Shown one piece after another: positions 34,392 through 46,385 of a DNA stretch of 49,110 nt. The DNA lies in contig JAFMJG010000004.1 of the NCBI GenBank assembly GCA_017853605.1, positions 1 to 49,110 of the forward strand, in the 5' to 3' direction. The notes beneath the pieces are model-generated. The model worked only from the letters and a program-made list of their open reading frames with translations. It made no database searches and was not told the origin of the DNA. Positions within the stretch are counted from its first letter, which is position 1, and every line of letters starts with the position of its first letter. Source of the DNA: a bacterium (GTDB taxonomy: Bacteria > Bdellovibrionota_C > UBA2361 > OMII01). The translations under genes were made by a program, and so were the position numbers.

Positions 34392-36245
34392 CTAGGCAGC
34401 AGGGAAGTAGAGGGATATGTTGGTCCCTGCCTGGCGCCTGGAGGCGAGCGTCACCGCGCCGCCATGCTTCTTCATCACCGACTTGGCCATCAGCATGCTG
34501 AGCCCGAGCCCCCGGCCCAGCTGGGTTCCCTTCGTTGAGAAGGATGCCTGCGGCACGCCAAAGTCCTCTCCAGGCGCTAGCCCCTCACCGTGATCGACAA
34601 TGCTGACGCGGCCATAGCTGCCCGGGGCTATCTCAAGAAGCTTTGCGTCTTCGGCGACCTGAACCCGATCCACGTGAATGACGATGAAACGCTCCGGCAG
34701 CCCCTGCATCGCGTCGATAGAGTTCTCGCACAGCTCCAGGAGAAGCTGCGCCACGGTAAAGTCGGCGAGCTCAACCTGGACATCCTCGTTGCAGACAAGC
34801 TCGAGGTGGCACTCGCCGCCATGCGTGCTTGCCAAAAGCTCCATGACAGCCTCGACGCAGGAGCGAAGCGACTTGCGGGTCCTCGCGCAGCCCTCATCGC
34901 CTGCCAGCGCGATCACGCGCTTTGAGAGCGCAAGCCCACGATTTGCCGCTTTCCGCAGGATGGTAAGCAGCTCCTCCACGCTGGATTCGCCGTCGCTGCC
35001 GGCCGTCTTCTGCTCGACCAGCGCCGCACACCCCAGGATTGATCCGAAAATCGTGTTGAAGTCGGCTGCAGAGGAACTCGCCAGCCGCGCGAAGGAATCC
35101 TCCCCGCTCGGCTGGTGAGGCAGCGCCCCCTCCCTGTCCGCTTCCCCAGGCGCCGATGGCCGGGCTGGCGAGAGGGGCCGCGCCGCTATCCACGTGGCCG
35201 CCTCTGCGAGCGATGCCGCCTCGTAGTCCGCCTTGGCGTCGCAGATGCCATCGTCCCCTCCCCGTCCCGTCCTGACCAGGACAGCCGCGCAGCCGCCATT
35301 TTTGCCGAGCTGGACATCAGAGCTCATGTCCCCCACCACAACACTCTGCGATAGGTCAACGTTCAGCTCGCGCTCTGCGCGCTTGAGGAAGTATGGGAAG
35401 GGCTTGCGGCATTCGCAGCCGTCGGCCTTCGAATGAGGGCAGAAGTAGATGCGATCGATGGCGCAGCCCGCCTTGGACGCCTGCCTCATCATCTCCCGAT
35501 TGACCGCGAAGAAGTCCTCGCGCGAAAAGTATCCCAGGCCGATGCCGGGCTGGTTCGTGACAACAACGACGCGGTATCCGCGCTCCTTGAGCGCCTTGAG
35601 CGCAGCAAAGCTCCCAGGGATCTCCCTGAACTTCCCTGGCTCGCTCAGGTACTCCACGTGCTCGTTGATGGTCCCATCACGGTCGACAAACACGGCGGGC
35701 CGGCGCTCGAAAGCCAGATGCTGCCCATCCTCGGTCCTCGCCGCAATCTCGATCCGCTCAATCGTGCCGGTGGTTGAGTGTCCGGCGCGAAACGGCACAA
35801 GCCTAACCTGCCCCCCGTGGCTCTCAACGATCTGCTTGGAGGAGAGCTGCTCGGCTGCGTAGTCGCCGGCCTTGATGTACAGGTCTGGCTTGAGGAGCTC
35901 CACGTTGAGGTTGTTGTTTCTCTCCGAGAAGACGAACACGTGGCCAACCGCCTGGAGCCCGGCAAGGACCTCCGCCCGCTGGCGCTCGCCGTTGATGGGC
36001 CTGGATTCTCCCTTGTTGGCCTTGACCGAGCCGTCCGAGTTGACCCCGACAAAGAGCACATCCACCTCTGCCCGAGCCCGCTCCAGGTACTCCACGTGCC
36101 CAACGTGGAGAATATCGAACACTCCCGAGGTAAATCCGACGCGCTTTCCCGCTGCCCGGTACCCCTCCCTCAGCGCGACGGCTGCCTCTCTGGTAACTAT
36201 CTTATTCATCATGCTGGCTGTCGGGTCCCGCAGGCTCTCCGTCAT
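34392..36245 (-). CDS. Fusion: heptose-P nucleotidyltransferase + heptose-bisphosphate phosphatase + histidine-kinase-like ATPase
   Basis: One unbroken 617-codon frame joins three modules. Residues about 13-165 are an RfaE2/HldE-C-type nucleotidyltransferase with FTSGVFDILHVGHVEYL (HxGH at 47-50) and IKAGDY. Residues about 183-350 are a GmhB-type HAD phosphatase: VFVDRDGTINE (Asp188, Asp190), VVVVTNQPGIG, the zinc set C269-x-H271 with C277-x-C279, and VVGDMSSD. Residues about 385-617 resemble an NtrB/hybrid-kinase core. The position expected for the phospho-acceptor His is Ala394 (AADFNTIFGSILG), while the ATP site looks intact: N508 (ENSIDAM), D551HGEG, FSTKG, and G577RGLGLSM. The first two modules are known steps to ADP-heptose for LPS core. 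The third is unexpected. The start is uncertain: the ATG at 36245 has AGGAGG directly abutting it, and Met12/Met13 (MNKIVTRE) fit the family start. Confidence 0.9.
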   Translation of the reverse strand: MTESLRDPTASMMNKIVTREAAVALREGYRAAGKRVGFTSGVFDILHVGHVEYLERARAEVDVLFVGVNSDGSVKANKGESRPINGERQRAEVLAGLQAVGHVFVFSERNNNLNVELLKPDLYIKAGDYAAEQLSSKQIVESHGGQVRLVPFRAGHSTTGTIERIEIAARTEDGQHLAFERRPAVFVDRDGTINEHVEYLSEPGKFREIPGSFAALKALKERGYRVVVVTNQPGIGLGYFSREDFFAVNREMMRQASKAGCAIDRIYFCPHSKADGCECRKPFPYFLKRAERELNVDLSQSVVVGDMSSDVQLGKNGGCAAVLVRTGRGGDDGICDAKADYEAASLAEAATWIAARPLSPARPSAPGEADREGALPHQPSGEDSFARLASSSAADFNTIFGSILGCAALVEQKTAGSDGESSVEELLTILRKAANRGLALSKRVIALAGDEGCARTRKSLRSCVEAVMELLASTHGGECHLELVCNEDVQVELADFTVAQLLLELCENSIDAMQGLPERFIVIHVDRVQVAEDAKLLEIAPGSYGRVSIVDHGEGLAPGEDFGVPQASFSTKGTQLGRGLGLSMLMAKSVMKKHGGAVTLASRRQAGTNISLYFPAA

Positions 36246-38313: not shown

Positions 38314-39777
38314 ATGCCAAAGAAGCTCCTAATCAAGACTCTGTCTAACTCGGGGGAGTTGCTAAACGTAATCAACTGCCCAGCGGGTCGAGTGAGCGTG
38401 TTCCGCGGGAGCGCCCCAGCGGACCTGCGCCCCTACCAGCGCGCCCTAATCGGAACCCACGGCAAAGAAAAGATGATCGTACAGGTGGATGATACCGCGT
38501 ACGACCCAGAGCTCCACAACGTAATCGGACTTGGTGAGGCGCCGCCACACGCAGGCATGACCGTGCGAGCCTTCCTGGCGAAGGCCGGCATCGAGGATGA
38601 CTCGCTGCCCGGGCTGCTCTCGTCGTTTGGGCTTGAAGACACCGCCGATCTGAAGTGCTCAGCGCTCTCTCCTGACCAGGAGCGGCGCATCCGCATCCTG
38701 TCCGCAACCTCCCAGCCAGACCGGGCGCTGATTGCCAATGAGCCGTTTGAGCACATCACGAGCCAGTGGAGAGAGCGCTTTGCTGAGCTGCTGGCCGACT
38801 TCGCCCAGATCCGCAACGGGCTGGTCGTGATTTCAGGCCTCTCATACCGGCCTGAATGCTGGATCGACAACTCTCTCATCCTGCGTGTTGAGGTTGGCCA
38901 ATCTATCCAGCGCACGATCGGATTTGGCCAAGCCGGCTCCGAGGCCAACCAGTTGGTGGAGGATCTGCGCAAGAAGCTGCAGGAGGAGCGCGCACAGGGG
39001 GATGCGCGTCGCGCCACCGCCGCGGCTTCGGCATCAGCTGCGACAGCGGGATACATCCCCGCCGGCAGGGATACGGGCGCTGCCCCATCCGACCTTTCGC
39101 TGATACGGTCCTGGCTCCTGAGCGGCGAAAGCCTCGGGCTTAAGGTCGCCTCAACGGTGCTCGCTGCAGCCGTGGGCATCGGAAGCGCCATTCTCGTGAT
39201 GCGGGGAGCCGGCTCCCCGACCGACCTCGCCGAAAAAACGGAGACCGTTGCCCTCTCGAAGCCAACAGAGCAGCCTGCTGAGAATCCCCAGGGGAGCCAG
39301 AGCAACACGCTCGACAGGGCCATAGCGGACGCCAAGAACGAGGCCCAGCGAAGCGCTGGCCAAGTCCAGGATGGCGGCGCCTCTTCTGTCGCCCGAGTAC
39401 GCTACATCCTTGATGAGTACCCCGAGGTGATCCGGGCCTCGATTATCGAGACGACTCGCGGCCAGATCGGCGAGGCTGCGCCGCCCGAGGGGCCCGCTAC
39501 GGGCCAGCCACCAGCGGCGCCGGCAAAGAGCGGAAACCTGTACAGCCTGCTCGAGCGCGCAAGCAGCAACGAGCCTGCAGCCCCCGGCGGCTACGCTCCC
39601 CAGCCTCCGGCCGCTGTCTATGAGGAGGAGCCGTACTACCCAGCGGAGCAGGAAGAGAGCCCCAGTGGCTCAGCCCAGACTGAGGAGGATCAGAAGCGTG
39701 AGGCGATACGCGCCAAGTTCCTGGAAGCGATCAGGTCTGCTGCAGAGCGCCGGGAGACCTCGCTTGAGGAGGAGTAG
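38314..39777 (+). CDS. Degenerate ABC-ATPase-like domain with membrane anchor and acidic tail
   Basis: In this 487-residue protein, residues about 5-195 align by eye with an ABC nucleotide-binding domain whose key residues are lost. The position of Walker A reads VFRGSAPADLRPYQRALIG without GxxGxGKS/T. The signature LSGGQ is LSPDQ (118-122), Walker B plus Glu is ALIANEPF (Asp to Asn142, Glu143 kept), and the H-loop region is VVISGLSYRP without His. A linker, one strong membrane helix (about 274-298, LKVASTVLAAAVGIGSAILVM), and a long acidic/Pro-rich tail follow, ending in a charged helix (KREAIRAKFLEAIRSAAERRETSLEEE). It probably cannot hydrolyse ATP and may be an anchor or regulator. The start is supported by GGAGGG just upstream, although the spacing is tight. 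Confidence 0.8.
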   Translation: MPKKLLIKTLSNSGELLNVINCPAGRVSVFRGSAPADLRPYQRALIGTHGKEKMIVQVDDTAYDPELHNVIGLGEAPPHAGMTVRAFLAKAGIEDDSLPGLLSSFGLEDTADLKCSALSPDQERRIRILSATSQPDRALIANEPFEHITSQWRERFAELLADFAQIRNGLVVISGLSYRPECWIDNSLILRVEVGQSIQRTIGFGQAGSEANQLVEDLRKKLQEERAQGDARRATAAASASAATAGYIPAGRDTGAAPSDLSLIRSWLLSGESLGLKVASTVLAAAVGIGSAILVMRGAGSPTDLAEKTETVALSKPTEQPAENPQGSQSNTLDRAIADAKNEAQRSAGQVQDGGASSVARVRYILDEYPEVIRASIIETTRGQIGEAAPPEGPATGQPPAAPAKSGNLYSLLERASSNEPAAPGGYAPQPPAAVYEEEPYYPAEQEESPSGSAQTEEDQKREAIRAKFLEAIRSAAERRETSLEEE

Positions 39778-43073: not shown

Positions 43074-46000
43074 ATGGCATCGCCCAACCACCAGCAAGCA
43101 GCGGCACAGCTCTCGCTTCCATCGCTGCTTGAGACGTCCACTGTGGACCGCTTGGGGGCCTGTCGCCTCTCGCCGGCCCAGCAGGCAGGGATCGAGAAGC
43201 TAGGGAGTCTGTGGGGCAAGATCCTCGCCCAGCTCTCGCCGATAATCTCCCGCAACTCGACCGCCCTTGGGCCTCTGCGAGACACCATGCTGCGTGGCAC
43301 CTTCGGGGAGGAGCAGCCATTCCTCGCCAACTGGCCAGCCCTCGCGCAGGGGGCGCAGCGGCTTCGTGAAGGGAAGAGCCAGGATGCCAAGGAGGCCCGC
43401 GAGCTCCTCAACGGGCTCCACGAGACAGCCCTGCTGGCCTCGCTGCTCGGCTCCTACGGAACCGGCCCCTTCGTTGCCCACGCGAGCGCCAACATTGCAA
43501 AGGCGTTCTCTGGAGCCGGAGAGCTGCCATCTTTTGCGAAGCGGCTCTACCAACATGCCCTGCCGCTGCTCGCCGTCAACGCCCAGCTTCGGGAGTGCGG
43601 AATCGACGAGCTCTCCGCTGAGGCGCTCGCTGCTGGGCTGCAGAAAGAGCAGGCCCGGTTGCTTGAGGGCTTCGCGAAGAGCCGCGCCCCGCTTCACTCC
43701 AAGGAGCAGGTGCTTGTGGAGGAGGCTCTCTCGATACTTTCAGCGGATCCCCCGCTCGACTCGGCGCTCCTGGTGGCGACCGCTCCCAGCCACGCTCCCC
43801 TTCTTGCCGGGCGGCTGTCAGCGGCGCTGCGGGGGGCTCCAGCGGGATTTGTGCAGGTTGTCGGGGCGGCATTGGGAGATCTTCGCTCAACCGTAGGGGA
43901 TACCGAGCCGAAGGTGCTCGTCGTCTCGGCGCTTGAGATACCGCCCATCCAGACACCGGTCAGCCGTGTGCTCATCTACTCTCCACTCCTTTTGAATGGA
44001 TCCCGGATGCTGTGCCTCTCTCGCCCAGCTATGGAGGGGCTGGCGACGGCTTTTCCGTCGGCATCAGTTGAGGTGCTGCGCACCTCCTCCGACTCGTTTC
44101 AGGTTGATCGAGCGCTGTACGAGCAGTGCGCGCCCTCAATGCGCCTGCCATCGTTGCCTGGCCCCGCAGCTCCCCCGCCTTCACCTAGCGCGGCAGGGCC
44201 CTGTGCCCCTTCGCCGCAACAGCACGCCTCGACGACACCTCCGGCAGCCCGGCAACGATCCGCGTCGATAGCGATCACGCTCCCGAAAACCACGCAGGGC
44301 ACGCTCTTTGCCCCCGCTGAGATGGCTGCGGAGCCGGCGCTCTCCCTCCCCTCTGCCGCGCAGGGGAGGCCGTTCCCGCTGATTGATCCAGCAACGCTCC
44401 CAAAGAGCGTTGAGGAGCTCAATGCCCGCTTGGGCATCACCATGATCAAGCCCGCGCTTATACCCCGTGCTGACCAGCTTGAGGAGCTCTTTCGTCTCCT
44501 TGAGCTTCCCTCGATGCAGTACCTCCTCAAGGCAGAGACCGGATTTGGAAAGACCGTGATGGCCTCGCTCCTGATGGGAGTCAGGTTCGGAAACTCGCCC
44601 CTAACACCACAGGAGTGCCGGCGGGGATTCCGTGTGGCCTACGTGACCCCGAACGTCAACCTCTGCGCCCAGGCTAAGCGCGAGTTCCTCCTCTTCCTCA
44701 ACCTTGAGGACTCGGAGGTCGCTATTCTTCATGGCAAGGTGTCGCCCCAAAAGCGGGCGCAGATTATCGAGGACCAGCAGCTCAAGATCCTCGTCTGCAC
44801 GCCAGAGGCGTTCCTGCGCACGATAGCAGCGGCTTCCCGCGAGGCAGGGCACGACTCGCTGGCCTTCATGGTGCTCGATGAGTTTCAGACCGCAGAGGGC
44901 GATCACCCCATGGCACGCCTCGCCCGTGAGGCCCGCGCTGCTGGAGTGCCTATCTTTCCGCAGTCAGGAACCCCGGCCCGCAATGCGCAAGACCTGGCGC
45001 GGAAACAGGCGCTCGTCCCGATGCGCGGCGCACTGGTCCCGCGGACGATGCGGCCGCTCAAGACCCACGAGCTGCTGCCGGCATCCCTGCCTGCCCGGGT
45101 CCTGCGCCTCGCTGCAGAGCTGAACACCTTCTCGTTCATCCCCTATGTCACCGCCCGCGAGCAGCTCAAGAACGCCGAGGACGCCATCAAGCAGGCCACC
45201 GGTGCTGCCCCTCCAACGCTCTTTCCCTCCCGCATCAGGCTCACCCGCAAGCCGCACATCGAGAGCTTTGGGCCGCGGAGCTCCCAGTCATTCAAAAAGC
45301 TCAAGGCCGACTCACTGAGGCTTCGGACTCAGCTCAACGCCCTTCGCAGCGCCCTCGCGGAGCGCGGCGAGCAGCTGAGCGACACGGCCAAGCAGGCGCG
45401 CACCGATCTCCACCTCGCGTCGGTGAATATAGGCCGCATGTCGAGCCTCGTTTCGCGCGCATCGCTCCTTAGCTACCTCGGCAGCTTCGCGTTCCTGCAC
45501 AACGTGGCAGCGACCTGGATGGCCCACTACCTCGACTCACCCCGCCGGCGCGGCGCGTTTCCAGCCTCGCGGGACTTCTTTCTCAAGCCGGAATTCCGCT
45601 CAGTCTTCCGGGCCGTGGCTGAGGGGACGCCGTACATCCACCTGCTTCAGTCGCCGACGACGCGTGAGGCCCTCCAGGCGGCATTCGGCATGGATTTGAG
45701 CGCAATACCGGACGACGCCGCCCAGCGCAGGGCCCTCTTTCTCAGCTTGGCGCTGCAGGAGATGTCGTCACGGGCCGAGCCTGGCCATCCTAAGGAGGAG
45801 AGCCTCTTCGCGCGCATCGAGGATCTCATCCAGCGCGATGAGGCGCGCGGCATCCTCGTTTTCGCCGAGCCCCGCCACGTGGCAAAGTACCTCGCCCTCA
45901 AGATTCAGGCGCGCTTCGGCAGCCGTGGAATACGCTCCGCATTTGTCACCGGCGAGGGGGACGCCATCGCCGAGAGGTACGGCCCCTACCTGCAGTCCCT

Positions 46001-46385
46001 CAGGTCGGGCCCGCGCAACGCCCCGCGACGCACGCTCGGAAGCTGGGAGGAGATCCGCGAGGAGTTCCAGCGCCCTCAGGGGACCGAGGGCCCGCGAATC
46101 AACATTATCGTGGCGACCAGCAAGCTAGCCGTCGGCACGAACCTCTCGGCGGCAGAAGAGGCGCACATCTACACAATGCACGCTGACGCGCAGAAGCTTA
46201 TCCAGATGGTGGGCAGAGTGGGCAGGCCCGATGGCGACAACTTCTTTGACCGCGTCGGGCGCTGCTTCTACCACGTCACCCGCAACACCCCTGAGTGGTT
46301 CCTGTTCAAGAGCGCAATCCGCAAGTATCAGTGGATTCGTGACACGCTCTCCTCCTCTGCTGACTGGGGCGGGGAGCCGTCATAA
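43074..46385 (+). CDS. Large SF2 helicase with a long N-terminal region
   Basis: The 1103-residue protein is a superfamily 2 helicase or translocase. Residues 1-410 are a helical, Ala/Leu-rich region with a weak ATPase-like stretch but no motif I recognise, followed by a Pro/Ser/Ala linker (about 360-430). The motor spans about 450-1080: Walker A AETGFGKT (487-494), motif Ia VAYVTPNVNLCAQ, motif II DEFQ (602-605), motif III SGTP, a long charged insertion, then motif IV ILVFAEPRHVAKYL, motif V IIVATSKLAVGTNLS and motif VI QMVGRVGRP (from 1044). DEFQ replaces the usual DEAD/DEAH and the insert (about 700-880) is unusual. It converges on the Fe-S nuclease gene with a 6-bp overlap. Substrate and partner are unknown. 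Confidence 0.88.
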   Translation: MASPNHQQAAAQLSLPSLLETSTVDRLGACRLSPAQQAGIEKLGSLWGKILAQLSPIISRNSTALGPLRDTMLRGTFGEEQPFLANWPALAQGAQRLREGKSQDAKEARELLNGLHETALLASLLGSYGTGPFVAHASANIAKAFSGAGELPSFAKRLYQHALPLLAVNAQLRECGIDELSAEALAAGLQKEQARLLEGFAKSRAPLHSKEQVLVEEALSILSADPPLDSALLVATAPSHAPLLAGRLSAALRGAPAGFVQVVGAALGDLRSTVGDTEPKVLVVSALEIPPIQTPVSRVLIYSPLLLNGSRMLCLSRPAMEGLATAFPSASVEVLRTSSDSFQVDRALYEQCAPSMRLPSLPGPAAPPPSPSAAGPCAPSPQQHASTTPPAARQRSASIAITLPKTTQGTLFAPAEMAAEPALSLPSAAQGRPFPLIDPATLPKSVEELNARLGITMIKPALIPRADQLEELFRLLELPSMQYLLKAETGFGKTVMASLLMGVRFGNSPLTPQECRRGFRVAYVTPNVNLCAQAKREFLLFLNLEDSEVAILHGKVSPQKRAQIIEDQQLKILVCTPEAFLRTIAAASREAGHDSLAFMVLDEFQTAEGDHPMARLAREARAAGVPIFPQSGTPARNAQDLARKQALVPMRGALVPRTMRPLKTHELLPASLPARVLRLAAELNTFSFIPYVTAREQLKNAEDAIKQATGAAPPTLFPSRIRLTRKPHIESFGPRSSQSFKKLKADSLRLRTQLNALRSALAERGEQLSDTAKQARTDLHLASVNIGRMSSLVSRASLLSYLGSFAFLHNVAATWMAHYLDSPRRRGAFPASRDFFLKPEFRSVFRAVAEGTPYIHLLQSPTTREALQAAFGMDLSAIPDDAAQRRALFLSLALQEMSSRAEPGHPKEESLFARIEDLIQRDEARGILVFAEPRHVAKYLALKIQARFGSRGIRSAFVTGEGDAIAERYGPYLQSLRSGPRNAPRRTLGSWEEIREEFQRPQGTEGPRINIIVATSKLAVGTNLSAAEEAHIYTMHADAQKLIQMVGRVGRPDGDNFFDRVGRCFYHVTRNTPEWFLFKSAIRKYQWIRDTLSSSADWGGEPS

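Follow-up and report, generated by a model that had tools for sequence, protein, structure and literature searches.

A membrane-anchored ABC-fold protein family with a degenerate nucleotide site and a candidate secreted partner in Bdellovibrionota_C

The locus and its distribution

The window, a 49,110-nucleotide stretch of contig JAFMJG010000004.1 (assembly GCA_017853605.1), carries on its forward strand an open reading frame for a protein of 487 amino acids, with the coordinates and frame given by the original prediction. The encoded protein combines a degenerate ABC nucleotide-binding domain (NBD), a single predicted membrane helix and a long tail. Its features are as follows.

38314..39777 (+): whole gene, 487 aa; pseudo-ABC NBD, single membrane helix and predicted extracytoplasmic tail
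38314..38907 (+): degenerate ABC nucleotide-binding domain, residues 1-198 (AlphaFold2, Foldseek, VIA-align, hhalign)
38407..38433 (+): overwritten Walker A, residues 32-40, GSAPADLRP replacing GxxGxGKST, with Leu38 at the Lys position (hhalign register, 34-member tally)
38665..38679 (+): degenerate signature LSPDQ, residues 118-122 (hhalign, 34-member tally)
38725..38748 (+): degenerate Walker B ALIANEPF, residues 138-145, Asp replaced by Asn (34-member tally)
38824..38844 (+): H-loop region VVISGLS, residues 171-177, His lost (34-member tally)
38848..38871 (+): family-specific motif RPECWIDN, residues 179-186, Pro180 and Trp183 invariant (alignment, 34/34)
38944..39030 (+): predicted cytosolic helix between NBD and membrane, residues 211-239
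39145..39201 (+): predicted single transmembrane helix, residues ~278-296
39409..39462 (+): tail motif 1, LDEYPEVIRASIIETTRG, residues 366-383, conserved and predicted helical
39529..39567 (+): tail motif 2, SGNLYSLLERASS, residues 406-418, conserved and predicted helical
39694..39753 (+): tail motif 3, KREAIRAKFLEAIRSAAERR, residues 461-480, conserved, within a predicted C-terminal helix (454-486)

A protein-level relative of the window frame is present in 27 of 37 related genomes, and a profile search recovered the family in 32 of the phylum's 45 genomes, among them 16 of its 20 high-quality ones, a conservation of the frame that excludes a chance open reading frame. The phylum is represented here by metagenome-type assemblies only, which are fragmented. 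A contig scan with the single window sequence matched close relatives only. The family alignment holds 29 full-length members, in which a conserved N-terminal domain is accompanied by a membrane helix and, in most members, by a long tail; nucleotide motifs were tallied over 34 members drawn from all branches of the 45-genome phylum.

Two other genes of the window have composite products. The first (34392-36245, minus strand) encodes a 617-aa protein that joins a cytidylyltransferase-like domain to a HAD phosphatase (resembling heptose-pathway enzymes) and a histidine-kinase-type ATPase domain; HisKA was not matched, and the helix resembling a phospho-acceptor reads AADFN against the expected HDFN. 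Relatives in the order have a version of ~340-360 aa. The second (43074-46385, plus strand) encodes a helicase-like protein of 1103 aa with DEAD and Helicase_C matches, whose long N-terminal region belongs to no recognised family and whose helicase halves are widely separated; it also occurs in relatives.

An ABC fold without a nucleotide site

The original prediction assigned the N-terminal ~190 residues to the ABC NBD fold, and profile, profile-profile and predicted-structure comparisons bear this assignment out. The AlphaFold2 model of the N-terminal domain (pLDDT 88.8, pTM 0.80) is that of an ABC NBD according to Foldseek and VIA-align. At E <= 0.001 Foldseek gave 1,072 matches, and those listed include ABC proteins. 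The top VIA-align match was CcmA (PDB 8ce5; Z 16.9, 187 residues, rmsd 3.5), in a list where Z differs little between neighbours and rows within 1 Z of each other are ties. The family profile matched ABCE1 (E 2e-10) and then CcmA (E 1e-7) in the PDB, the 60 matches listed being ABC proteins, and hhalign aligned it with 17 intact ABC ATPases of the same phylum over 174 columns (98.3%, E 1.1e-14). CcmA is also the commonest NCBIfam match among the family; the window protein scores ~20 bits against that model, whose cut-off is 131.6. Searched singly, the window sequence had no Pfam match and only insignificant PDB matches; the ABC matches came with the family profile. Membership of the N-terminal ~198 residues in the ABC NBD superfamily is confirmed by ancestry and fold.

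The nucleotide site is another matter. Walker A, described at first as missing, is overwritten rather than deleted: the hhalign register places GSAPADLRP of the window protein exactly on GPNGAGKST of intact ABC ATPases, with no insertion or deletion (GRVSVFRGSAPADLRPYQRALIG versus GEVVLLLGPNGAGKSTLLRVLAG). Neither GxxxxGK[ST] nor GxxGxGK[ST] is kept in any of the 34 members, and the Walker Lys position is occupied by Leu (26), Ile (5) or Phe (1), or falls in a gap (2). The signature is LSPDQ or a variant of it instead of LSGGQ, so that the glycines are lost while L and S are often kept. The H-loop His is present in none of the 34, and the D-loop Asp is also lost. At Walker B the window protein has Asn for Asp, as predicted, and retains the catalytic Glu (NEPF), a retention that is not family-wide. 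Type 1 members, the subfamily to which the window protein belongs, mostly have Asn at the Asp position, whereas most type 2 members keep Asp and lose Glu; an intact Asp-Glu pair occurs in no listed member. Loss of the nucleotide motifs, first read from one sequence, extends to the homologs. Other residues have become conserved: Pro180 and Trp183 in 34/34, Cys22 in 33/34, and the PF after Walker B in 32-33/34.

Judged by these motifs, with Walker A, signature, Walker B pair and H-loop all departing from consensus, the window protein is probably no longer a working ABC ATPase, and it may be unable to bind ATP in vitro. The Walker A loss is common to the whole phylum, and the predicted catalytically dead, membrane-anchored ABC fold is therefore well supported at the sequence level. 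The new invariant residues suggest selection on the pseudo-NBD for something other than catalysis. In a further profile search, family members lay at E < 1e-45 and ordinary ABC proteins at E > 1e-12 with an empty gap between them, so that no intermediates were found; the decay of the site is old. Types 1 and 2 have lost different parts of Walker B. Decay therefore probably began with Walker A, whose loss they share, and reached Walker B later within each subfamily.

Membrane anchor, tail and two subfamilies

The single membrane helix foreseen for the window protein was recovered at residues ~278-296. Lys and Arg are commoner before than after it in most members, a charge bias that favours an N-in/C-out topology in these; the tails, which are Pro-rich, would then be periplasmic. 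The long acidic tail of the original prediction is seen in the window species (33 acidic versus 19 basic residues) but does not hold family-wide, since the tail is basic in some relatives and what is conserved instead is a set of three helical motifs. Type 1 proteins consist of a pseudo-NBD, a cytosolic helix, a membrane helix and a predicted periplasmic tail that is mostly disordered apart from three short helices, LDxYPxxIRxSI, GNLYSLLExAS and RREAIRxKFLEAIxxAAERR. Type 2 proteins (L047 5517-6737, L050 9054-10307, L051 685-1953, L126-L129) have a pseudo-NBD, a cytosolic linker in which other stretches are conserved (VTRPQ, EAIVNP, SPSGKLTRVT) and a C-terminal membrane anchor. The two types separate in the family tree with support of 94/95; the tree has some very long branches and a single distant member that falls between the types. 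Families f13 and f18 carry two copies. This distribution of parts suggests a cytosolic task at the membrane common to both forms, with a periplasmic link specific to type 1.

A candidate secreted partner

F9 is a family of ~300 aa proteins with a signal-peptide-like N-terminus and two invariant cysteines, without a match in Pfam, NCBIfam or the PDB. Its gene adjoins the type 1 gene in seven genomes. Over the 45 genomes, type 1 and F9 occur together in 22, type 1 only in 3, F9 only in 2 and neither in 18 (Fisher test, p 1e-7, shared ancestry ignored); with one genome per genus the corresponding counts are 12/2/0/18 (p 4e-7, shared ancestry again ignored). Both F9-only genomes are incomplete assemblies. 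The order members without type 1 (G016, G019, G020) also lack F9, and outside the order, family f18 has both genes, adjacent to each other. F9 is absent from all seven type-2-only genomes, as expected if it serves the tail that type 2 lacks. In one genome without F9 (G013) the type 1 protein has a shortened tail (331 aa), and in two others (G006, G017; assemblies 84-85% complete) a full type 1 protein is present and F9 was not detected. In the genus of the window F9 is not adjacent to type 1; the gene sits between guaA and der on a different contig, a setting found in most of the genus; the copy of the window genome is at L155 6477-7445 (G000:C27). The surroundings of F9 (guaA, der, rnc, mnmA, iscS-like) point to no pathway. 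F9 is probably the partner of the type 1 protein outside the membrane, and the tail may contact it physically.

Used by itself as a query, the tail matched type 1 proteins and also a PMT/GT39-like membrane glycosyltransferase, to which it is fused C-terminally in two sister species, G004 (L168, G004:C340, 5358-8566) and G006 (L052, 4437-6740). Orthologs of this enzyme lack the tail, the one in the window genome among them. The type 1 tail is, as far as these sequences indicate, a portable module. The soluble C-terminal part of GT-C enzymes sits outside the cytoplasm, and the fusion therefore fits a periplasmic tail. A second F9 copy stands directly upstream of the fusion, on the same strand, in G004, one of the two fusion cases; in G006 the fusion is present without F9.

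Gene neighbourhood and ABC transporters of the genome

No ABC permease was identified beside the gene in the conserved neighbourhoods (L023-L051), whose recurrent neighbour families were annotated; the sole ABC gene seen there encodes an ABC-F-like protein near two order members. The window genome has ~33 strong ABC_tran domains, among which the pseudo-ABC protein was not detected. It encodes four FtsX-type and four ABC-2-type permeases, each with an adjoining NBD by coordinates, and no orphan permease was found among these two families. PADLOC gave no defence match.

Other neighbours were set aside. LOG, an Rsm22-like methyltransferase, a heptose enzyme and a peroxiredoxin look like housekeeping genes, as do RNase HII and YraN (both named from sequence). 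The conserved neighbour F3 (YRFFHPHHNPRL), weighed as a partner and used as the control for the F9 association, shows no link with type 1 (p 0.25); the window genome lacks it. F3 (L026 8858-9205 and relatives) is a conserved family of ~115 aa without a Pfam match, present in 31 of 45 genomes and often beside LOG; downstream of the type 2 gene in G033 and G036, F3 and then LOG follow on the same strand.

Proposed role and alternatives

The computed properties of the family (its fold, a nucleotide site whose motifs are lost family-wide, one membrane helix, conserved tail motifs, and an F9 gene that co-occurs with type 1 and adjoins it in seven genomes) lead us to propose that the type 1 protein is a bitopic inner-membrane, trans-envelope adaptor that works with F9 independently of nucleotides, a proposal to which we give about an even chance of being right. 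The cytosolic ABC-fold domain would neither bind nor hydrolyse ATP and would serve as a protein-docking surface; one helix would cross the inner membrane; and the flexible periplasmic tail, with its three short conserved helices, would work with the secreted F9. A scaffold or a regulator role would both be compatible with this layout, and any link to the cell envelope is put forward on the same conditional footing. In this reading, the best supported of those considered, the protein would be a pseudo-enzyme that acts as a scaffold, here with an ABC fold.

An unlikely alternative, although the strongest of those weighed, is a non-catalytic subunit of an ABC machine, whose pseudo-NBD would have as its partner either an active NBD or an ABC permease encoded elsewhere. 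The retained NBD fold and the often retained L and S of the signature agree with it, and degenerate halves of heterodimeric ABC transporters behave in this way: CydC, RbsA and NupO are degenerate NBDs in heterodimeric or fused ABC proteins (PMC10374445, PMC11466899). These share with the window protein an ABC fold with an impaired ATP site but work with an active partner site, whereas the window protein stands alone and has lost, with the signature glycines and the D-loop Asp, what a partner's ATP site would need for completion. The architecture of TagH of Bacillus subtilis also speaks for such a subunit; this NBD of the teichoic-acid exporter TagGH carries a single helix and, outside the cell, an SH3b-like domain (PMC11466899). 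NBD, single transmembrane helix, flexible linker and extracytoplasmic part recur in the window protein, for which the side of the membrane is a prediction. The window protein differs in having neither ATP motifs nor an adjacent permease, and in a tail of short helices where TagH has a folded domain. Against a subunit role, moreover, stand the conserved neighbourhoods, in which no ABC transporter gene was identified, and the FtsX and ABC-2 permeases of the window genome, which have their own NBDs.

We consider it improbable that a reshaped pocket of the pseudo-NBD holds another small ligand and makes the domain a sensor whose signal passes along the helix into the periplasm. The replacement of catalytic residues by the invariant or near-invariant Cys22, Pro180 and Trp183 would suit such a pocket, but no known ligand-binding motif is present and the invariant residues may be structural. 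Still harder to sustain is a weak nucleotide binder that holds ATP without Walker A and regulates by binding only. Walker B Glu is kept in part of type 1 and Asp in most of type 2, yet 32/32 aligned members have an aliphatic or aromatic residue in place of Lys, the P-loop glycines and the signature are lost, and the Walker B residues have eroded differently in the two types. A decaying, functionless gene, suggested by the loss of all catalytic motifs, is refuted for practical purposes by the open frame and domain in 32/45 genomes, the conserved tail motifs and an NBD dN of 0.23 against a dS > 2 (saturated, a rough value) relative to the nearest species.

Returning to the adaptor proposal, the nearest known systems mark out what is distinct about the family. 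CcmA, the haem exporter ATPase of cytochrome c maturation, shares the minimal NBD of ~200 aa and is the best structural match, but its ATP motifs are intact and it has no membrane anchor. Neither TagH nor CydC nor RbsA/NupO is a stand-alone protein missing the whole nucleotide machinery. GspL of type II secretion and RodZ of cell shape determination are scaffolds with a non-catalytic cytosolic domain, one helix and a periplasmic part. The window protein follows the same plan by analogy, with unrelated folds. In the open-licence papers covered by our literature search, no family of inactive stand-alone ABC ATPases was found.

Impaired ATP sites are common within ABC complexes, and a whole stand-alone, membrane-anchored family that has lost every motif was not found described. 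We tentatively suggest, leaning slightly towards doubt, that these proteins form a new family of trans-envelope adaptors with an early-lost nucleotide site and two forms, of which the bitopic one would have in F9 a dedicated secreted partner, new to description, bound through portable motifs; as part of this reading, the tail motifs that recognise F9 would also have been transplanted to the glycosyltransferase. The subfamily-specific erosion of Walker B after the shared loss of Walker A suggests an order in which such a site decays, and the tail and F9 form a directly testable pair. If the reading is true, the ABC fold would have been reused as a pure interaction module, in parallel to the pseudokinases.
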